Of a DNA stretch of 64,000 nucleotides, positions 7,173-52,838 are shown one piece after another. The notes under the pieces were generated by a model. The model made no database searches. It worked only from the letters and a program-made list of their open reading frames with translations, and was not told the DNA's origin. This DNA is from Pseudovirgaria hyperparasitica (taxonomy: Eukaryota; Ascomycota; Dothideomycetes; Acrospermales; Acrospermaceae). The translations under genes were made by a program, and so were the position numbers. Position 1 is the first letter of the stretch, and every line of letters starts with the position of its first letter. The stretch covers positions 46,671-110,670 of the forward strand of contig NW_022985581.1 in assembly GCF_010093815.1 (NCBI RefSeq), written 5' to 3'.

Positions 7173-7540
7173 TATAGAAGTGAAGATTGCAGTGTTCAAA
7201 GGGAGTGAGAACAAGTGGTGGCTTGATATTAATACTAGTGTTCCTCTGATATCAGCGCCTCTGTTTGTGAGTACGAGGATAGTTACATGTTAGTGTGAAT
7301 GATGTATCGAAGAAGTGAATGAAGTCAAGGTTCCGCGTCTATCGATAGCCCAGTCCCACTATCATTCATAGAGGCGTCTATGTGGGGTATTTCCTGTACC
7401 GACGCGAAATATCTCAGAACATCCGAATGCTTTCAACGACCCACAGCTCAATGTTCGCGTCGCCTTGCACTCAATGTAATTAATTGTATATTCTCATCAC
7501 CTCATCGACTCCTCCACGCCCGCCCCCGCCCTCTCCTTTG
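7173..7540. promoter_or_regulatory. Shared divergent promoter region
   Basis: 368 bp between the starts of nicotinamidase (minus) and the ASNSD1-like gene (plus). It must hold both promoters. No specific binding site is claimed. Confidence 0.45.
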
Positions 7541-9341
7541 ATGTGTGGCATCTTTGTTTCTTTGAGCGCTACAGCTCCTCCCGCAAAACCTAATGCTGAC
7601 ATCAGTGAGTTGTTGCGCCGGCGCGGTCCAGACAGCGTGGAAGATCATGTGGTGACTATACCGAACGAAAATTTTACACTGTACGCGTATTTCTTGACAA
7701 CAGTTCTCTCACTTCGGGGATCCGATATCGTGGCCCAGCCACTCGTCGACAGGGCTTCTGGGTCTGTTCTCTGCTGGAATGGAGAAGCGTGGAGCATACG
7801 TGATGAGATAGTGGCCGAGAGTGACACAACCAAAGTATTCCAGTCCCTTTTAGCAGCAAGTCTGGCAAATGCGAGAGCTCGAGCAACCACTGATGATCAC
7901 AACGATGCCATATTGGGCGTCCTGTCGTCTGTACGCGGGCCTTATGCACTGGTATTCTACGACGCTGCCAGTGGCCGCCTGTACTTCGGTCGAGACTGCC
8001 TTGGTCGCCGATCTCTGCTCTATTGTTCTGACACTGTAGGTGAGATTACAATATCTAGCTTGACCGACAGTCAATTTTCAGGCCGCTTTCATGAAGTCGA
8101 AGCCGACGGCCTTCGTGTCATAGATTTATCAAGACCGTCAAAGGAGTTTGTCATTAACCGTATTCCATATGACCACAAGTCAGACTCGCCGCAGGTTGTG
8201 GTTCTATACCCACACAAATGCATCATATGCTAACATATATGTCAGAAACTTCCATTCGGACCCCTCAACAAGGCTCACCCAACTGCAGATCAAACTCTCT
8301 CTGCTCTCACGATCGCGTCAGCCCCGGTACACGATCTGGAGCGTGTCTTACGTCAATCTTTGAGTTTGCGTGTGCAGAAGATTAAGGCCGGTCCTTCTGT
8401 CGAGGCTGATACAGGCCAGTGTATTCTAGCGATTTTGTTTTCAGGGGGGCTTGATTGCTCTGTAATTGCCAGAATGACTCATGATTTACTGGATGAATCA
8501 GAGCCTGTCGATCTCCTCAATGTAGCATTCCACAATCCTCGGACTCATAAACCTGCCGAGCCGGGTCAGGAACTCACCAAAACATCATACGAGCTGTGTC
8601 CTGACCGCCTCACTGGCCGAAAAACATTTGCTGAACTACAGCGTGTATGTCCGAGCCGCACCTGGCGTTTTGTGGCCATCAATATCCCATACGAAGATAC
8701 ACTATCTCATCGCGAGCTGGTGAAGAAGCTCATGCAGCCACATAATACCGAGATGGATCTATCGATCTCTTACGCTCTATACTTTGCGTCCAGAGGTATT
8801 GGCACCGCGTACAACTCTAACGGTTCCGTCATACAAGACTATTCGACCTCTGCGCGGGTACTCCTCTCGGGACTGGGCGCCGATGAGTTATTCGGAGGAT
8901 ATCAGCGTCACGCGACAGCGTATTCTCGATCAGGCTTTCCAGGGCTACTGGATGAGCTTGAGCTGGATGTCAATCGCCTCGGTAAACGCAATCTTGGCCG
9001 CGATGATAGAGTTATATCGCATTGGGGCAAGGAAGCTAGGTTTCCCTATCTTGACGAAGACGTAATGAGTTGGGCTCTTTCGGCTCCAATATGGCAGAAG
9101 TGTGGATTTGGTCTTCCGGAGAGCCCATCGTCGGAAGATCAAGCCCTGGAGCCTGGAAAATTGGTATTACGGCTTCTTGCAGCGAGACTAGGCATGACCG
9201 GCGTTGCATCTGAGAAGAAGCGGGCGGTAGGCTCTACTTGCTGTTGGATCAAAGACAAAGCTGATCAGGCAGATTCAATTCGGTGCAAGGACGGCGAAGA
9301 TGGAGAACAACAAAAGCAAAGGCACCCATGTGCTGTCATGA
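7541..9341 (+). CDS. Asparagine synthetase domain-containing protein (ASNSD1 / YML096W family)
   Basis: Predicted glutamine-dependent amidotransferase fused to an asparagine-synthetase ATPase; the physiological product of this family is not established. Exons 7541..8194, 8246..9226 and 9273..9341 (567 aa), introns 8195..8245 and 9227..9272. Cys2 of the N-terminal MCGIF is the class II glutaminase nucleophile, followed by LRRRGPD and LCWNGE. The second half has the PP-loop SGGLDCSV, LLSGLGADELFGGY and SHWGKEARFPYLDEDV. The last exon ends with a basic tail, IQFGARTAKMENNKSKGTHV, typical of ASNSD1 and absent from ordinary asparagine synthetase. An ATG 57 nt upstream lies outside the conserved Cys2 start, so 7541 was chosen. 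Confidence 0.9.
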
Positions 9342-10629
9342 AAGCCACTCAACTCTGTAAGTGCCCATATGTCTCATAGGTCTCGGCGTTTGGTGGTTAG
9401 CGATGATGACGGGCGAAATTCGCCAGCAGATACTTGTGAGGTAAAAGTTCATCTCATGACGGTGTGTATGTTCCTGCACTCTGTGTTTTCGACTCTCGTC
9501 AGTCAACCGGGTGAGGGAAATCCGCTGTTGTGGGAATTGACATACCTATGATCCAGAAAAGGCAAGTCTGAGCTACATCCTAATCAAACGGCAGCGGATT
9601 TGACCGTGATTGTCATGAAGATGCAAATAATTAGTTTTGTTTGCCTGTGTTGACTGACACGTAAACTTCGAATGTGTCACAGAAGCAACGAAACCATGCC
9701 ATCCATGTGCGGCCTATCACTGCAAGTCACTGCAAGACACTGCAACTAGCAGATACCAGAATGAGCTGGAGGCTCCTATCATGATGAGGTACTTCAAGAC
9801 CTTCCTTTCGCGTAAGTGTTGTACTAGTAAAGTATGCCTAGTAATGTCTGATTTTGTTATAGGAAGCGAAGTGTTTGAGATGCACAATACCTAGCTGGTT
9901 CCCGTTTGTATGGAACCTTCATTACCTACTTACCTTAAAGCTCACGCGAGATGGGAGTATATCTAGGTGTGACCCTGGTGTTGCCATTGATAGCCTCCAG
10001 TATAAGTGCCAGAAGCACAACAGTAAGCTCAGCATGGTCCCTTGATCATGCAACATTCGCCTAATTTCTCTCATCAAAGTGCAATGTATCCGACCTTCAC
10101 TGCTGCTCTGACCATTGCTGACTATCCCCAAATACCAGACAGAGTCCTTGGGGATATTGCCAGTGGCACGAAATCAAGTGTCTGGTCAAATGCACTACCT
10201 ATGGAGGCGCATTGGAAAACGAAGGGTCACACTACTTTGTTTGATCGGAAGTTTGTTGTTCAGATGGTCGAGGGAAGTGGTCTATAGGTATAAGCAACAT
10301 ACGTGCGATACCTTCAGATAGCCAAATGCGCCATCTTCAAGCCTCTCCATCGTCTTCTTCTTGCCTCTATCACATGCTCGTACACGTTCTATCATGGCGT
10401 GCTGATATGTACCGGTATTTTAGCGTGTCGACCCCGACTTCCATTACTAGCTCCGATTCCTATCTTATCTCCTTGAACTACTACTCTACTAGGTAATAGT
10501 TCGTGATACAGCGACAGTCTCAAATCATCTGAATGGCGACGCTCCCGCGGCCTTTGCGACTGTCTTCTTCCCCTCAGACACAACTTCAACCTCCTTGAAG
10601 ACCACAGACCCTATCAACGGTCTCCCACC
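9342..10629. other. Intergenic, 1.3 kb
   Basis: No gene supported. The short frames at 9922-10321 on both strands lie antisense to each other without motifs. Includes the promoter of the DUF4202 gene. Confidence 0.5.
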
Positions 10630-11220
10630 ATGTCCCAACGACTCGAAAAAGCCCTTGCGGCAATCGATGCTGCCCACTCAAACGACCCGACCAAGACGAT
10701 CATCAACGGCGAAGCAGTCCCATACGAGCTACTTTACGCACAGAAGATGACCAAGTACCTGCACCAGCTAAGCTCTACGCCCTCGGAAGAGCTCCAACTC
10801 GCGATCCGCGCACAGCACTTCCGCCGATGGGAAGTCCCGCGCTCATCCTACCCAATGACGAAGATAGGCTACCACAGTTGGCGGACATACCTCAAGAAAC
10901 GACAAGCCGAGCTTGTGGCGCCGATCTGTCGCGATGCGGAATACAGCAAGGAGTCGGTGGAGCGCATCGAGGCTCTGATCAAGAAGGAGGGCTTGAACAA
11001 GGGCGAGGAAGAGGTGCAGATTCTGGAAGATGTGGCGTGCTTGGTGTTTCTGGACGATCAGTTTGATGAGTTTGAGAAGGAGCATGATGAGGACAAGATT
11101 GTGGGCATTCTGCGGAAGACGTGGGGGAAGATGGGGTCGCTGGGAAGAAGCGCGGCGTTGGAGATGCAGATGAGTGGGAGGGCGAAGGAGTTGGTTGGGA
11201 AGGCGCTTGAGGGGAATTGA
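10630..11220 (+). CDS. DUF4202 family protein
   Basis: Single-exon gene of 196 aa; the family has no assigned reaction. The protein starts MSQRLEKALAAIDAAHSNDP. It carries the family core IRAQHFRRWEVPRSSYPM, GYHSWRTYLKKRQAEL, VQILEDVACLVFLDDQFDEF and a closing KTWGKMG. Conserved His/Glu/Asp residues (HFRRWE, LEDVACLVFL..QF) recall an HD-like helical fold, but that is inference. No signal peptide or membrane segment, so probably cytosolic. The ATG sits in a good context (CACCATGTC). Strong codon bias to G/C at third positions in the second half suggests good expression. Confidence 0.85.
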   Translation: MSQRLEKALAAIDAAHSNDPTKTIINGEAVPYELLYAQKMTKYLHQLSSTPSEELQLAIRAQHFRRWEVPRSSYPMTKIGYHSWRTYLKKRQAELVAPICRDAEYSKESVERIEALIKKEGLNKGEEEVQILEDVACLVFLDDQFDEFEKEHDEDKIVGILRKTWGKMGSLGRSAALEMQMSGRAKELVGKALEGN

Positions 11221-11518: not shown

Positions 11519-13071
11519 TCAAAAGCTCAAAACTTGCGTAAAGAATGGACTCGCTTCCGGAAGCCTCTTGCACAAGAAATCCGGCGCGTACGACTCCAAC
11601 TTCTCCGTCTCGTAGTTCCCCGTCGCCACCGCAACGACTCTGCACCCGGTCTCCTTCGCACACTGGATGTCTAGCGGCGTGTCCCCGACGATGGTGACAT
11701 CCGAAGGCGCGACTGGGATCCCGTGTCGAGCCTGCATCTTCCGTATTGAGTCCAGCACCAGCGCGGACCGGTGCTCGTGCGCGTCACCAAAGGACGAGAT
11801 CTCTAGGTCGAAGATATCTGTGGGGAGACCTGCGGCAGAGATCTTGAGCAGTGCATTCTCGCGCGAATTGCCGGTCAGCAGACCGATTGAGACTCGTCGG
11901 CCGAATTTGTCGCGCTGTTGGGGAAGCCACTTGAGTGCCTCGGACACTTGCGGGCAGGCAATTGAGGTGAAGCCCTTTCCAAGTGATTCTCGGAGGTACG
12001 AGGGGTGCAGCTCGAAAAACTTGGTCATCAATGGCTGGATCTCATCCTCGCCGAAGCCGTGGTAGCTTAAGATGGCGCGCAGCAGTGATCTATCGGTCAC
12101 ACCATGGAGGTTGATATCCGTGTTTTCGTTGTTGATGTCTTTGCCTGTGATGTCACTGACGCAGCGATAGTAAGCGTCGATACTCAGGTCTTCAGAGCGG
12201 CAGAGCGTGCCGTCGACGTCGAAGAGAACGAACATGTCTGCCTCGGCAGCGTGTGGCCAGGCGAGGACACGGAGGAGCTCTCTCGATCCAGTGAATGAGG
12301 TGCGGCCGTGAAGGAAGCGATGATTGTCGACGATGTAGCACTGGCCGGGCTCGAGTGAAACAGCAAAGGCGTGCTTGTAGACTATATCGCTGAGCTTCTT
12401 GAAGTTCTCAACGAGAGATGCTGACATCTGAATGCCGTCGTCGAACCGGAAACGTACTATATCAGTTTTCTCGTCGTAGATGGGCCTTGGCTGAAAGGTG
12501 CCGTTGTCAGCTTTGAAGCTAGAGTATTTAGCACAGGTGATGAGGCTGTATAGGAGCGGCTCATGTTGGCGAATGTAGTCGAGAGCTTGGCGTGTATCTA
12601 CGAGCGCTGATTCGCCCCCAGTTTCGGATTTGACCTTCAGTGTAGTCATGAGCACTGGATTGGGACTTAGCTAAGCTACGACGTCATAATTCGAAGGTAC
12701 AAAGGAGTACTGACAACGTGGGGGTTCATCCCATCCACTACGATCGGTGTGGAAGAATAGTTCTAAGTACCAGCGTTAGTCACTCAGAGGCGTTAGTTAG
12801 ATGGTCGGTCGAATCTACCTTGATTGCTATACCCTTTGCCTTCTAGGCCTGGAGCACAACGGATGTTACTGACTCCTCTTCCACCTGCCAGCTCATTGCG
12901 AGGCCGAGCAATTGTGCCCAAATTCTCTCCGAGAGCAACGAGTTTGTCTTCATCACAATTTTGGAGAAAGACCATTCCATCGCGATAGAATGCCTTTCTG
13001 ATTCCGTCAAGATCAAGTGTGTCATGAAAATCAGGGGTATAGAACCCTCGGAGGCAGTCCTTGACGTCCAT
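11519..13071 (-). CDS. Fusion protein: TauD/TfdA Fe(II)/2-oxoglutarate dioxygenase + HAD phosphohydrolase
   Basis: Two enzyme domains in one 478-aa chain. Exons 12819..13071, 12715..12762 and 11519..12654; introns 12763..12818 and 12655..12714 (the second donor could lie 3 nt away). Splicing restores NQELFFHTDRSGWDEPP. The dioxygenase half has the iron facial triad His89-x-Asp91 and His216 in DNHRFLHGR, with Arg residues downstream for 2-oxoglutarate. A HAD domain starts about 25 residues later: FDVDGT (nucleophile Asp246), LLTGN near 361 and VGDTPLDIQCAK near 424. It resembles phosphoglycolate-phosphatase-type HADs. The linker contains no stop or splice signal, so the fusion is real within this reading frame. 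The substrate is unknown. Divergent from the sugar porter at 14741. Confidence 0.85.
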
Positions 13072-14740: not shown

Positions 14741-16472
14741 ATGGCCAATAATGCAAATTTTCGCACTCTGGCCGTGGGGGCCCATGTTTCGCTGGCCGGT
14801 TTCCTCTATGGACTTGACACAGGTGTGCATGGCGAAGGCAGCCGCTGTGATGCTCTATAGCAGCCTTTCTGACAACTGGTAGGTTCTATAGGCCCAATCA
14901 CCGAGATGGATCAATTCAGAAACTCAATAGCAAACCTGTCCTCCGGTCAGCAGGGTATCTTTGTTGCATCTATCCTACTTGCCTCATCGGTCTCATCGTT
15001 GCTGAGTGGTCATGTCGCAGACATTGTCTCTCGTCGATATGGCATACTCATTGGCGGATTGTTGAGTTTGACTGGCACACTTCTCTCATCCGTATCTCAA
15101 AACTTCGCCTCTCTAATCGTTGCTCGTCTGATCACTGGATTCGGATTAGGTCAGGCTATTGCAGTCACTACTGTATACTTGATTGAGATAGCGCCCAAGA
15201 GCATACGAGGGGTGACGGCATGTATGCTGCAGACCAATGTTGTGGTCGGTATCACCGTAGGCTACTTTGTCTCTTTCGGCTCGCAGGAGTTGCAGAGCAC
15301 TCTCGCGTGGCGAACGCCTTTCATACTTCAAGCATGTTTCGCACTCGTCCTGACTATCGGCATGTTCTTTCTTCCGTATTCCCCGAGATGGCTTGTCCAG
15401 AAGGGCCGCATTGAAGAAGCAAGGGTCGTTTTGGCACGGTATCGAAGTCATGAAGTCGTAGAAGCAGAGCTAGAAGAGGTACAGGCTGGCCTATCGTCAC
15501 ATAGTCTTGAGAAGACAGCTGGCTGGTTAGAGATGTTCGAAAAGAGATATCGTGGTCGTACCATGTTAGGTATTTTCTTAATGGGTTGCCAACAGCTTAC
15601 AGGTGTAAGTTGGATACTGAAAGTTTTCTCACGCTATAGTTCACACGCAACAGATCGACGTCGTGCTGTACTACGCTCCCATCCTGTTCCAACAGGCTGG
15701 TTTCGATTCTGAGAGAGCTTCTTTCCTCGCTTCGGGAGTAAGTGGCATTGTCATGCTAGTTGCTACAGTCCCAGCTCAGATATGGATTGATCGGTGGGGT
15801 CGGCGTAAGCCCTTGATCATCGGCGGGTCTTTGATGGCCGCTTGCTTCATTGTTATTGGAGTGATTTACGCTAGATATGGCACACGTGTTGAGAAAGGAG
15901 TTCGCTTGGAGTCGAGGGTCGGTCAATGGTAAGAACCTGTGTCCTCGGGCATCACTTCTCCTTGCCAACAGAGCATTGCGGTTTCTATCGCAACAGCTAA
16001 TGCGATTCTAGGGTAGTCACAGTGTTGACCTACGTATTTGTAGCAAACTTCTCCTGGTCATGGGCAGTGGTAAGAATGCCCAAGTTCGAGGAATTCATTG
16101 CGATTTAGCTGACATAATACCTGATAGGTCGGCAAGATCTATGCGTGTGAGATTATTCCCACGCGACTCAGGGCCAAAGTGTCGGCGGTTGAATTACTGA
16201 CGAATTGGTTGGTGAACTTCGCGGTAGCATTGACAGCACCGCTTTTCTTACGCAGCTCACCCAGCGGACCCTACTTTCTCTACGGTGGTGCTACATTAGT
16301 TGCCGCAGCCGTGTGTATCGGCATGCCGGAAACCAAAGGTCGGAGTCTCGAGGAAATCGAGTTTGAGTTTGAGAATGGATCCCTTTGGAGGCGCATCACA
16401 TTGCAGAGTAACAAAAATAGGAGCACGCTGGTCGCGAATGAATCAATTGAACGCGACTTGTCGGAAAGATGA
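14741..16472 (+). CDS. MFS sugar transporter (sugar porter family)
   Basis: Plasma-membrane proton-coupled sugar or polyol carrier with 12 predicted helices, 493 aa. Exons 14741..14822, 14883..15604, 15654..15928, 16012..16069 and 16128..16472. Family signatures: AGFLYGLDTG formed with exon 2, DIVSRRYGIL after TM2, YSPRWLVQKGR after TM6, QQLTGIDVVLYYAP across the exon 2/3 junction, DRWGRRKP, and PETKGRSLEE at the end. The usual PESPR is PYSPR here. The N-terminal cytosolic part is very short (about 15 residues). Lies divergent from the dioxygenase-HAD fusion and 521 bp before a Zn2Cys6 factor in the same direction. The substrate cannot be told from sequence alone. Confidence 0.9.
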
Positions 16473-16993
16473 ATGCGAGCAAATAGAATGAATGGTACTA
16501 AACCTGTAAGCAGGAGTTGCATCGACGCAGTAGTGGTGGTGCCGCACGTCTAATGACTACAATCGACGGTGTTAGATGATAGTCAAGTCATCAACGATAT
16601 AAGAGGCAGACTTCAGACCGATGTTGTAGGGGTAAAGGGGTAAAGACATGGGATGATGTATGGATGAAACGATATCACCTCAGTGCTGCACTCAATCTAT
16701 GGAGCCCCTAAGCCCTGCTCCCTAGCTTCTGTATGTCTGTCCTAATGATAGTCTATGGAGTCACTGTGTGTCTATATCCGGCTTAGTCTGTACACTGTCA
16801 GCGAGTTGTCACCCTCAAATATTATCTTACCGGTAACATTACTCTGTGACATCGCGTGCAATCCCTCCTCTTCCCAACATGAGCATTTGAATTATTCAAA
16901 GAAGCAGAAAGGTGGAACATAACAACACGTCCAATACAACGCACATGCAGCCCGTTCCATCACCAGCAGCGCGTCATTGGCGCCCAGAGCGCC
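16473..16993. other. Intergenic between the sugar porter and the Zn2Cys6 factor
   Basis: 521 bp, nothing recognised beyond a presumed promoter for the downstream regulator. Confidence 0.45.
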
Positions 16994-19160
16994 ATGCAAG
17001 AGACATCAGAATCGCAGTCACCGCCGCAAAGTCTGGCTGCTGTTAGGCGAAGGAATAAGAAGGGCTCAGCATGTACTCATTGTCGTCAACTGAAGGTATC
17101 GTCCTTTTCTGGTTATCTATGCTAGCTCTGGACTGCTGCTGATGGTCGCAGCTTAAGTGTGATGCTGCAGATACATTTCCAGCCGCCTGCACCAGATGCG
17201 GAAAGGTAGGAAGGCAGTGCTCGATAGACCCAACTTTCAAGAGAACTGCAAACAAGGAGTATGTCAATTTTACTTATCTTTTAAGCCTCGTGTATAATAC
17301 GTGGTGTGCCTAATGTCACTGCAGACGACTGGATTCTCTTGAGAAAGAGCTTAAGCATATGCGCAATGAACTTCGATTGAAGCACGCGACTCCAACAGGC
17401 TCGTCGCCTTCTATTCCTCCAAATGCAAGCACCGAATTTTCTACAGCGCCTCAGCCAGCTCAGCTTGACGTATCGTCTACGACAATCAAACACTCTAGCC
17501 AGATTGTCAGCGAGACAATAGACGAGGTTGAACTGCCGTCAAACGTGATCCTCAAGCTCATACACGAGTAGGTCTATAGTCTACAGATACTCAAATCATA
17601 GTCTGACCGATTCAGATACTTCGAGCACTTTCATCCTTATTTTCCTGTCCTACCAGATCTTACTGCCTTTCTAACAAGATACAATTCAAACAAACTTCTC
17701 CTGTGGTCAGTCCTAGCCATTGCTTCCCGAGAATCACGCGATTTCCCATCTCTATACCCGACGTTAGTAGATCCTGTGCGCCGACTCGCTGCGGACCTGT
17801 ATGCCTCACAGAGTCGTAGTTTTGAGACCGTTCAAGCACTCCTCCTTCTCTGCGTGTGGCCGTTTCCTTTCCAGCAGACCATAAATGACCCTTCTCCTAT
17901 GTACGTGGGTCTTGCCACCCAAATTGCCTACCAGCTCGGCCTTCATCGCCCTTCTCGTAGAGCAGATTTTGCGGAAGGAAGAATGCCCCAGTCTGATCCT
18001 GGGGATTTTGCGGTAAAGAAAGTGTGGTTCGGGTGCTGCATTGTCAATCAAGCGTAAGTGATGGAATCATAGTTTGGTTAAAGATCGTAAACATTTAATC
18101 AACATGCTGTAGCGTAACATCAAAACTTGGAACCCCATCCACAATTCGGCCAGGCTTCGCTGTACTTTCAGAAGTCGCTGAGGGACGCTCTTCCATCATT
18201 CCCGAACCCCTTTTGAGCCAGCTTCACCTTGCACACTTATCCAACAAAGCTTTTCAAGCTCTGGGTGACTACGAATATTCTGCTAGCGGGGCACTCCCCG
18301 ATTGTCTCACCACAGTTCGATCTTTCGAATCAGAATTCATTGAAACATTCGAACGTTTCAGACATAGTTGGTCACCCCACAGTGAGATCATATATCAGTC
18401 TCAACTCCTTCACTTGTACTCTTTCGGACTGGACAGCGGTACGATGACCAGTCAGACTGCGCGTGCAGACGTATCCGTAAACTCAATTTACGGCAGAGCC
18501 TGTAATGCTGTCTTACGGTTGATACACCTTGTACAATCACATTCGCATGCAAGCAATTACTGGCCGGCTTTCGTCAAAAACTCGTTGTTCTATTGTCTGA
18601 TCTTCGCTCTTCCATTAGCAAATCTAGAAGACCATGGCTCAGACCAGAGGAACGAATTAATACAGGCCATCAAAGAAGGTAATATTTTGATGAAAAGCTG
18701 GTCTATGTTCGACCGTGATCACTTTTCGCGCGTTTCCTCTCATGTCGACTACCTTGTCCGCGCTTTGGAGAAAGCAGATCGAGGTCAGATTCCTACGCCT
18801 CCCACTATCGCTGGGCATGCGATTGCGGCAACAAGGGAAGGCGGTAAGAGAAAGAGGCTTGGCTTATCAGTAAGGTCTCGTATGGCAGCGAATGTCATCT
18901 ATGAGACTATCTGGGCTGGAAAGCATGCTGCACTTGACGAAGAGCAAGCCCGTCAGACACGACCAGTAGTACCCCCAGTCGTGCACCCGTCAAATGGCAG
19001 CATCATCAAGCAAGCCCCTGTCGAAGTTCCCGCGGCGGCAGACTTTCAGCTCGACGGCTTCAATCCAGGCTTTGATGAGTTTGCTTTTACAGACGGATGG
19101 GGTGATTCAGGATTTCTCGACATTCTTGCAGATTGGCAGAGTCTTTTGGGAAACGAATGA
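16994..19160 (+). CDS. Zn2Cys6 transcription factor, Leu3-like class
   Basis: Nuclear DNA-binding regulator of 645 aa. Exons 16994..17095, 17152..17258, 17325..17567, 17616..18053 and 18113..19160. All five join in phase. The zinc cluster crosses the first intron: ACTHCRQLK joined to LKCDAAD, then CTRCGKVGRQC. The linker CSIDPTFKRTANKE and a short coiled coil RLDSLEKELKHM resemble the Leu3 group. The fungal regulatory middle-homology region follows (EYFEHFHPYFPVLP, YVGLATQIAYQLGLHR, KKVWFGCCI). The acidic/aromatic C-terminus (FDEFAFTDGWGDSGFLDILADW) is a plausible activation domain. Downstream of and collinear with the sugar porter, so it may control it and the dioxygenase-HAD fusion; this is inferred from position only. 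Confidence 0.9.
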
Positions 19161-33565: not shown

Positions 33566-34530
33566 TTACACACCAGCTTCGCCTGCCTTGTATTGCTTGA
33601 ATCCGTCCTGGGCCGCGTCCTTTACTGTCACCTTGCCTTCACTGTCCGTATGTGTTAGCATAAGCATACACGTGGTCGAGGGATACCTACACAATCTCCT
33701 TGACTTTGGCCGCAATAGACTTGAAGTCTGCAAATACGGTAAAGGGGATCTCTTCGCGCACACAGTAATTGATAAGATCCTTGCCCTTCTTTGCGAACAA
33801 CAGATCACTTTCACGCGCAGCAGAAAGATCCGACACACCGTCCCCAGCGTAGAACATGATGGGTCGGATGTCGTCAGGTAGCTGGCCGTACGGACGCAGA
33901 GTAAGGGACTTGTCATGACCAAATCCGCTCTCGTCATGGAATTGGATATCCCAACCATTCTCCTCGTCAATTTTCTTTCCTGGTCGGGCCTTAACGTCGT
34001 TTGCTACAACTTCGATCTTCTCCGAATCGGGTCCGATAAGGTTCTTCAAGAGCGCACGAATGACGGGGACCATACCAGACGAGAGTACGACGACTGGGAC
34101 ATTGTTCTCAAGAGTCCACTCGAAGAAGTCCTTGAAGCCAGGGTCGAGCTTGATGTTCTTGACTAGCAAGTCAATACACTCCGGAAATGGGGCTGTGACA
34201 CTGTCCAGCATCTCCTGGAACGAATCTCTGAAGGTGATCTTCCCTTCGAGGGTGTCGATGTTGCCCTGACGGCGCTTCTCGACTCCATAGCCAATATTAT
34301 CAGTCTGTCCACATTAGACATTGATGCAATTGTACAATTGATCAATACCGATTACCATATAGTCATTGCCTGTGAAAGGTTAGATTGTCAAAAGTCTACG
34401 GCGCATTTGAGATGCTATGATGCTGGCAAGGCCACTGACTGTCCTGTAACGTGATCGTTCCATCGAAGTCTGTGAAAAAGATTGCTTTTGGGTTTGTCTT
34501 CATAGCCGGAAGATCTTGAATGGACCCCAT
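33566..34530 (-). CDS. PYP1: HAD phosphatase, polyol-phosphate phosphatase (Pyp1/YNL010W) family
   Basis: Predicted to dephosphorylate polyol phosphates such as sorbitol- or ribitol-phosphate, by similarity to yeast Pyp1. Four exons: 34440..34530, a 14-nt micro-exon 34356..34369, 33691..34304 and 33566..33641 (264 aa); all phases close. The micro-exon supplies SNDYM between TITLQD and TDNIGYGVEKRR, as in the yeast protein. HAD motifs: FTDFDGT (nucleophile), VVLSSGM, and AGDGVSDLSAA. Also DPGFKDFFEW and FAKKGKDLINYC match the family. The last intron (33642..33690) hides a TAG, and the true tail is EGKVTVKDAAQDGFKQY. Soluble, probably cytosolic. Confidence 0.88.
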
Positions 34531-51636: not shown

Positions 51637-52512
51637 TCAGATGAGTAGTTCTTCTAGTAACGCTTGTCCGTGTGGTTTTAGATCCGGAAATTTGGAAATC
51701 GAGTAGAAATCAAGCCAAAACCCGCGTGCATCTTCGTGTGGTGCCATATGTTTGCGTAAGATCGTCTTCCATTCTTTGTCTTCCGATCCAAGACCAATTC
51801 CAGCGGCAGTATATTCCCACCATACGGGGAAGTACCCACTTGCCTCCCAATCCAAAATACCTGTGAGATTGCCGTTCTCCACCATGATGTTACCACTGTT
51901 TAAGTCCCCATGAGTAAAAGTGAAAGGGCCTGTAGAAGGCATTCGTTGTCGCAAACGCTGACAAGCCTTCTCGGGTACTCCTCTCAGAGCTTTTTTTAAT
52001 TCAGCCCAGAGGTCATCATCGGAGGCGAAGGGGCCATGAGGGATGCCATAGTCGGGTGGAAAGAGGAAAGCCGAGTATAGCGGCTTCATATCCACACTCG
52101 CCAAGTGATGGGAATGGAGCTGCCGAAGCTGTTGGAGAGACTCGGCTGTTTGTACTGCGATACGTTCTTTGTCATCTCTTGAGAGCTTGCTCCACATTGC
52201 TTGTAACGTAGTCCCAGGGACGCGATGCATGACTGTAAAATGTCGTCCATTGCTTTCAGTCCATTCTTCAACGATGCTAGGCACCGGGATTGTAGTCTTC
52301 TCTTGTATTAGACGAATATTAGGAGCTTCATTATCCGGTGGCTGGTTTGATCTCTCCTTCAGGATCAATTTAGACCCTACGGACCAGACACCACGGTCGC
52401 TGACTCCGTAGACCAGCTTCACATGGCTCTCATAGCGACAAGAATGCTGACGTGTTGAAGACCAGCTACAGGCGCAGCAGGGAATGTCAGTACCTATACC
52501 GGTACTAGTCAT
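51637..52512 (-). CDS. Aminoglycoside-phosphotransferase-fold small-molecule kinase
   Basis: Protein-kinase-like fold enzyme of the APH/choline-kinase superfamily, 291 aa, single exon. Landmarks are NEAPNIRLIQEKTTIPVPSIVEEW, FTVMHRVPGTTLQAMW, the catalytic loop FTHGDLNSGNIMV (His-x-Asp...Asn), and the metal motif GILDWEASGYFPVWWEY. The Lys of the ATP pocket is probably in LILKERSN. Many paralogues of this family exist in fungi with unknown substrates; antibiotic resistance is not implied. It is the last gene before the AT-rich transposon block, 330 bp away. The Cys-rich first 20 residues are odd, and an unrecognised 5' exon cannot be excluded. Confidence 0.78.
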   Translation of the reverse strand: MTSTGIGTDIPCCACSWSSTRQHSCRYESHVKLVYGVSDRGVWSVGSKLILKERSNQPPDNEAPNIRLIQEKTTIPVPSIVEEWTESNGRHFTVMHRVPGTTLQAMWSKLSRDDKERIAVQTAESLQQLRQLHSHHLASVDMKPLYSAFLFPPDYGIPHGPFASDDDLWAELKKALRGVPEKACQRLRQRMPSTGPFTFTHGDLNSGNIMVENGNLTGILDWEASGYFPVWWEYTAAGIGLGSEDKEWKTILRKHMAPHEDARGFWLDFYSISKFPDLKPHGQALLEELLI

Positions 52513-52838
52513 CGAGACTTAAAGACAAGGGAACTGTATAGAAAGGGCATTCGGGAATCTCGCTGCAGCTAATCACAGTGTTCTAGGTCGTCCCTTGGTC
52601 CTACTAGGTTACGTCTATCCATTTGTCCATAGTTAGTTACATGAGAAAGCTTATACTAGGTCTAATCTATTCTTATATAAGATTCTTTTTAATATACTTC
52701 TAAAGAACTTATAGTTTAGGTTCTAAAAGAGAGTAGATAGATCTATATAGAGGTTATTAGCTCTCTTTAAGATTAATAGTAAGGTTAGTAGATTAGTATT
52801 AGAATAACTTAGAGAAGTTAATTAGTAATATAATATAT

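Follow-up and report, generated by a model that had tools for sequence, protein, structure and literature searches.

A predicted TauD dioxygenase-HAD hydrolase fusion gene in Pseudovirgaria hyperparasitica and a recurrent TauD-NUDIX gene pairing among its actinobacterial relatives

The stretch of DNA analysed here (the window) covers 64,000 nucleotides of contig NW_022985581.1 (positions 46,671 to 110,670, forward strand) in the Pseudovirgaria hyperparasitica assembly GCF_010093815.1, which comprises 35.0 Mb in 59 contigs. A gene on its minus strand, running from 13071 to 11519, is predicted to encode in three exons a protein of 478 aa with an N-terminal TauD-family dioxygenase domain and a C-terminal HAD hydrolase domain. 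The splicing of this gene was inferred from sequence. The parts of the gene and its neighbours are as follows.

12819..13071, minus strand: exon 1, opening with the start codon at 13071 and encoding residues 1-84, with the N-terminal stretch of the TauD domain
12763..12818, minus strand: inferred intron 1, 56 nt, GTAGAT...ACTTAG, with CTAAC-like branch sequences
12715..12762, minus strand: exon 2, 48 nt, ELFFHTDRSGWDEPPR, with the HTD motif that supplies the Fe(II) ligands H89 and D91
12655..12714, minus strand: inferred intron 2, 60 nt, GTCAGT...ATCCAG
11519..12654, minus strand: exon 3, remainder of the TauD domain (H216, R229), linker, start of the HAD domain at residue 241/242, and the TGA stop codon at 11519-11521
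11522..12235, minus strand: HAD hydrolase domain within exon 3, residues 241-478
10507-11220: frame of a DUF4202 gene, downstream of the fusion gene and tail to tail with it
14873..16472, plus strand: multi-exon gene for a Sugar_tr-family MFS transporter, upstream of the fusion gene and divergent from it, a possible partner
16883..19160, plus strand: multi-exon gene for a fungal transcription factor of the Zn(2)Cys(6) type (Zn_clus 5.3e-9 on a hand-spliced segment, Fungal_trans 3.9e-15), a possible partner

The frame closes at codon 93 if intron 1 is retained and at codon 115 if intron 2 is. Mechanical generation of open two-intron GT-AG models gave 135, of which 64 retained the HTD motif, and the model chosen is the one whose product, LFFHTDRSGWDEPPRLLMTT, aligns with TauD relatives. 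The donor of intron 2 (GTCAGT) is not the strongest one. A one-intron model without exon 2 is also open (462 aa) and loses the HTD motif. Since the 48 nt of exon 2 are a multiple of three, its skipping would leave the frame intact but delete H89 and D91, and an isoform with a dead oxygenase might arise in this way.

From residue 101 onward, the TauD and HAD domains lie within one exon with no intervening stop, joined by a linker of ~10 residues (PHAAEAD). A strict consensus scan (donor, branch and acceptor, 45-160 nt) found no intron within exon 3. The codon-position GC pattern runs unbroken across the junction, with third-position GC at 0.54 in the TauD half and higher, at 0.72, in the HAD half. 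The preliminary description had proposed a single spliced frame that passes from one domain to the other without a stop or splice site, and this holds for the 478-aa model. An artefact of the gene model was rejected because the retained introns give early stops and the spliced frame carries both motif sets.

Both domains were recognized by Pfam far beyond chance. TauD (PF02668) matched residues 16-230 (4e-26, 92.9 bits against a cut-off of 27), and the region of residues 243-468 matched HAD_2 (4e-12, 47 bits against 23.8) and Hydrolase_like (1.6e-11, 44.4 bits against 22). The TauD half has the facial triad H89/D91/H216 and the 2-oxoglutarate arginine R229; in a 10-row alignment with bacterial TauD relatives, H89, H216 and R229 were invariant, and the position of D91 held D in eight rows and E in two. 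The HAD half carries DVDGT from residue 246, LLTGN from 359 and GDTPLD from 424, so that motifs I (DxD), II (T/S), III (K/R) and IV (D...D) are filled by D246 and D248, T361, R396, and D425 and D429, respectively. In a 24-row HAD alignment, whose rows were picked for similarity, D248, D425 and D429 were conserved in all rows and D246, T361 and R396 in 23, with Arg replacing Lys in motif III in 23 of the 24. The Fe(II) triad and the full HAD set reported in the preliminary description were recovered at their places, the observation of a predicted fused TauD-HAD gene is confirmed, and both halves look catalytically intact.

Among solved structures, the closest relative of the HAD half was 2HCF (E 1.7e-18, nearly full length), a stand-alone protein of 234 aa named solely as a haloacid dehalogenase-like hydrolase. 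The nearest to the TauD half were gamma-butyrobetaine dioxygenase (BBOX, 2.5e-7) and TmpA (3.8e-7). Predicted structures of the HAD half alone (mean pLDDT 42) and of a bacterial short TauD with three rows (pLDDT 45.6) were too poor for use.

Among the 25 NCBIfam matches listed of 31, no model reached its cut-off. TmpA and the gamma-butyrobetaine and trimethyllysine dioxygenases are the nearest named TauD-family enzymes by sequence among the matches listed, with scores of 51.6 bits against 400 (TmpA equivalog, NF049936), 54.4 against 414.75 (TIGR02409) and 62.9 against 268.3 (TIGR02410). The models of these enzymes span ~360 residues and include an N-terminal part that the fusion's TauD domain (~240 aa) does not have. 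Phosphonatase (phosphonoacetaldehyde hydrolase, PhnX; TIGR01422) scored 14.1 bits against 220, and the PhnX-like model 29.2 against 218.9. PhnZ belongs to the HD family, and no HD (PhnZ-type) domain was found in the fusion protein among Pfam matches up to E 1. Membership in the phosphonatase or carnitine pathways was rejected on these scores, and the phosphonate or amino-carbon chemistry that the preliminary description had offered as an example is not borne out.

Elsewhere in the P. hyperparasitica genome, a family search with exon-wise matches found at least 16 further places that pass the TauD cut-off, and at least eight further ones for HAD_2. No second copy of the fusion was found by DNA and protein searches of the genome, of which the protein search was not sensitive, because it also missed other TauD genes found by the family search. 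Among the loci from this family search, the best own-genome scores were 32 bits for the fusion's TauD half and 27.7 bits for its HAD half, compared with up to 79 and 92.8 bits, respectively, for bacterial relatives at the same database size, the bacterial set having been picked for similarity from many genomes. The higher bacterial scores fit bacterial-type subfamilies for both halves, and we offer only as a suggestion that the halves may have been acquired by horizontal transfer.

The two halves were found together nowhere else in the bacterial, plasmid, phage and viral collections searched, which are ill suited to finding fungal orthologues. Of 72,556 plasmid records, 34 matched the fusion, and none of these covered 80% of the query or spanned both halves; seven records matched in the TauD half, of which those of Amycolatopsis AA4 and Spirosoma were examined, and one record matching in the HAD half (L003) was examined. 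No relative of the fusion protein was found in phages, and none in viral contigs in one scan with the whole protein and one with the TauD alignment. A whole-protein search of 296 actinobacterial genomes gave matches at 1e-12 in 27 genomes, each essentially within one half, and no match across both. A scan of genome contigs with the TauD alignment gave three loci, and the later bacterial searches used TauD queries.

The closest TauD relatives found are short actinobacterial proteins that are 27-31% identical to the fusion's TauD domain. We examined 36 TauD relative loci (L002, L004-L007, L079-L086 and L153-L175), drawn from plasmids, genome contigs and actinobacterial samples of 249, 394 and 297 genomes; the samples were searched at strict E-values, which leave weaker TauD relatives outside the set. 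A homologue of the Amycolatopsis AA4 NUDIX gene lay 0.15 to 2.0 kb from the TauD gene in 32 of the 36 loci; two NUDIX queries (from L002 and L085) were used, and the higher-scoring of them gave 113 to 313 bits. Two gene orders occurred, with domain names taken from Pfam and the TPR match under its cut-off. In type A (21 loci: L002, L005, L006, L079-L082 and L153-L166; for example L002:4089-6705), which occurs in the orders of Amycolatopsis and Nonomuraea, the TauD gene is divergent from a NUDIX-HTH pair. In type B (11 loci: L084-L086 and L167-L174, with L171 shortened), the order is TauD, TPR-like, PP2C-like, NUDIX, and this predicted four-gene set is conserved in actinobacteria. Four loci lacked a NUDIX gene: in L083 the TauD is a fragment, in L175 it lies at the edge of a contig, L007 falls outside the branch in trees, and L004 (Spirosoma) has its TauD relative within a glycan cluster.

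As a control, 23 other TauD loci with 6 kb flanks were inspected, and none had a NUDIX gene; these loci were searched for in nine genomes and present in seven, with 11 of the 23 from a single genome (G002). Flanks of 1.5 kb gave a NUDIX gene in 5 of 7 branch loci and 0 of the 23 others, and were too short because the type B gap is ~2 kb, so 6 kb flanks were used instead. One control locus (L114/L190), again without a NUDIX gene, holds a TauD gene just outside the branch that scores 57.8 bits to the fusion's TauD domain, about as much as the lowest-scoring type B members. It should be noted that the loci share descent, so the 32 are not independent events; the recurrence is better gauged by the two gene orders. 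This TauD branch is recurrently paired with a predicted phosphohydrolase gene, and this linkage is the most useful new lead from the analysis.

The fork that unites the fusion's TauD domain with types A and B and the Spirosoma protein had a support of 90/84, below the starred level, in a tree of 35 chosen rows (L139, L140, L144, L145, L146, L151 and L152 left out), and of 82/53 in another tree that omits ten distant bacterial rows. Groupings of the fusion with type A, with type B or with both were not rejected (p-AU 0.12 to 0.27). The TauD proteins of the fungus's own genome did not form one group.

The NUDIX partner gave weak MutT-type NCBIfam matches (41-43 bits against cut-offs of 98-148). 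The AA4 locus lies ~3 kb from 7-deazaguanine synthesis genes, which are adjoined by a nucleoside deoxyribosyltransferase gene; this setting was seen at one locus only. Separately, the PADLOC model PDC-S07 was matched by the NUDIX proteins of L084 (46.4 bits) and L002 (60.8 bits).

No HAD relative was found in 35 of the 36 TauD loci, the sole exception being L167, where a separate HAD gene (L167:2808-3479) adjoins the NUDIX end of the type B operon. Conversely, no TauD gene lay beside the HAD relatives in nine loci with flanks of ~2-6 kb, or in 22 loci with flanks of at most 1.5 kb. One of the nine, L003, had a weak NUDIX match (46 bits).

A keyword search of open-licence PMC papers returned no report of a dioxygenase-HAD fusion, which agrees with the earlier statement that no characterised enzyme is known to have this order of domains; the accessible part of PMC3475032 contains nothing on HAD. 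According to these literature searches, TauD plus HAD joins two known families in a new combination, and the enzyme itself is not of a new kind. Among characterised proteins, the nearest in kind, from the portions of their descriptions available, are fungal PhoF and the fungal HAD-like terpene cyclases. PhoF of Fonsecaea multimorphosa is described in the available text of PMC10574752 as a PhnY-PhnZ fusion of a 2OG/Fe(II) dioxygenase with a phosphate-releasing domain, and it provides, along with TmpA/TmpB, a precedent for oxidation coupled to phosphate release. PhoF is likewise fungal and likewise joins a 2OG/Fe(II) dioxygenase to a second, phosphate-releasing catalytic domain; compared by description, it differs in that its second domain is of the PhnZ type, whereas the protein described here has a HAD domain and no HD domain. 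In the terpene cyclases AacA and AstC, as presented in the accessible part of PMC13244436, a fungal HAD domain is also fused to a second enzyme, with transfer of an intermediate, but the partner is a terpene cyclase and there is no Fe/2OG chemistry. LipL, in the part of PMC6384614 available, oxidises UMP with loss of phosphate. LipL and Cpr19 are UMP dioxygenases that carry out Fe(II)/2OG oxidation on a phosphorylated compound; going by their descriptions, they differ from the fusion in that phosphate leaves without a phosphatase domain. The actinobacterial NUDIX-linked TauD proteins may belong to the same short branch as the fusion (fork support 90/84) and have a phosphohydrolase partner; they differ in that the genes are separate and the partner is NUDIX rather than a fused HAD domain.

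We give an even chance to the reading that the protein is a bifunctional enzyme, performing hydroxylation and phosphomonoester hydrolysis on one metabolite. The N-terminal domain would act as an Fe(II)/2-oxoglutarate dioxygenase of the compact (~240 aa) TauD branch and hydroxylate a small organic substrate at a carbon atom. The C-terminal HAD domain would act as a phosphomonoesterase, forming an aspartyl-phosphate on D246 and then releasing phosphate. Both steps would take place on the same metabolite, phosphorylated at some stage, to give an oxidised, dephosphorylated product, and the fusion would hold the two activities together as gene linkage with NUDIX may do in the bacterial relatives. 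The gene structure with its inferred splicing, the domain identities, the catalytic residues and the bacterial NUDIX linkage come from sequence. From them we infer the activity of each half, the common substrate and the order of the steps.

Sequential action of the two domains is plausible and is our leading hypothesis; the repeated occurrence of this TauD branch beside a NUDIX phosphohydrolase gene supports it indirectly. The predicted fungal fusion is a covalent form of the TauD-phosphohydrolase pairing, with HAD as the partner. Several observations count against the bifunctional reading: the bacterial partner is a NUDIX rather than a HAD protein, so the partner type is not maintained; the HAD relatives examined have no TauD gene beside them; the Spirosoma and L114/L190 loci have no NUDIX gene; and the TauD grouping falls short of full support (90/84). 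If the halves are coupled, the substrate is narrowed to metabolites that are both oxidisable and phosphorylated, with a single protein to screen, and the bacterial NUDIX linkage would open a further, genetically tractable way into this chemistry.

The main rival explanation is that the HAD half is an active independent phosphatase (for house-cleaning or salvage) or a structural or dimerisation module, and that the fusion merely co-regulates two halves with separate substrates. HAD domains are often promiscuous, and the bacterial HAD relatives do not lie beside TauD genes (0/9 loci), both of which favour this explanation. A further point in its favour is AstC, which, in the available part of PMC13244436, has no phosphatase activity and uses its HAD-like domain to co-regulate product selectivity. 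Against it, every HAD catalytic position is kept, which argues against a purely structural role, and the TauD branch recurs beside a phosphohydrolase. We consider this explanation rather unlikely on the whole.

A narrower form of the shared-metabolite reading, with overlapping probability, places the protein in nucleotide or sugar-phosphate chemistry. The TauD domain would oxidise a phosphorylated nucleoside or sugar, as LipL does UMP, and the HAD domain (NUDIX in bacteria) would act on the phosphate. The NUDIX partner in 32/36 loci, its weak MutT-type matches, the 7-deazaguanine and nucleoside deoxyribosyltransferase genes near the AA4 locus and the LipL precedent (from the portion of PMC6384614 available) all point this way, but no substrate-specific model scored over its cut-off, the 7-deazaguanine genes were seen at one locus only and the likeness to LipL is one of described chemistry. 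It is a tentative proposal and an unlikely one at present. We regard as equally speculative the broader proposal of a so far unrecognised two-enzyme module of compact TauD and phosphohydrolase, with the fusion as its eukaryotic version on a single chain and the TauD-NUDIX pair, in its two gene orders, as its version in Actinobacteria; all of these would oxidise and dephosphorylate the same nucleotide-like or other phosphorylated metabolite.

Phosphonate catabolism appears quite improbable. The TauD domain would hydroxylate an aminoalkylphosphonate and the HAD domain would break the C-P bond, making the protein a HAD analogue of fungal PhoF; to our knowledge, no HAD phosphatase chemistry on a 1-hydroxyphosphonate has been described, which counts against this. 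The nearness of the TauD half to BBOX and TmpA among solved structures and the existence in fungi of a 2OG dioxygenase-PhnZ fusion (PhoF, in the accessible part of PMC10574752) speak for it. However, the TmpA, phosphonatase and PhnX-like models score far under their cut-offs, the HD domain is absent, and BBOX, whose chemistry does not involve phosphonates, matches as well as TmpA does. We rate this reading lower because no phosphonate-specific model fits and the PhnZ partner of PhoF is missing. Finally, the absence of a working fusion, either through two products made via an internal start at M241, which sits at the domain boundary directly before the HAD core, or through a recent accidental join of genes, is highly improbable given that no stop codon ends the TauD half, the coding pattern carries on without a break and the two active-site sets are complete.

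Around the fungal gene, no NUDIX domain was found among the Pfam matches of the neighbouring frames scanned. By adjacency alone, the transporter, the regulator and the fusion enzyme would fit a small catabolic cluster. Elsewhere in the window, a second HAD-superfamily gene (PF12710, 5.4e-16) lies at 33687-34313 and an APH-family phosphotransferase domain (PF01636) at 51637-52518. An asparagine-synthase-like gene lies at 7484-9379, and the glutamine amidotransferase domain at its N terminus is encoded in a neighbouring frame.
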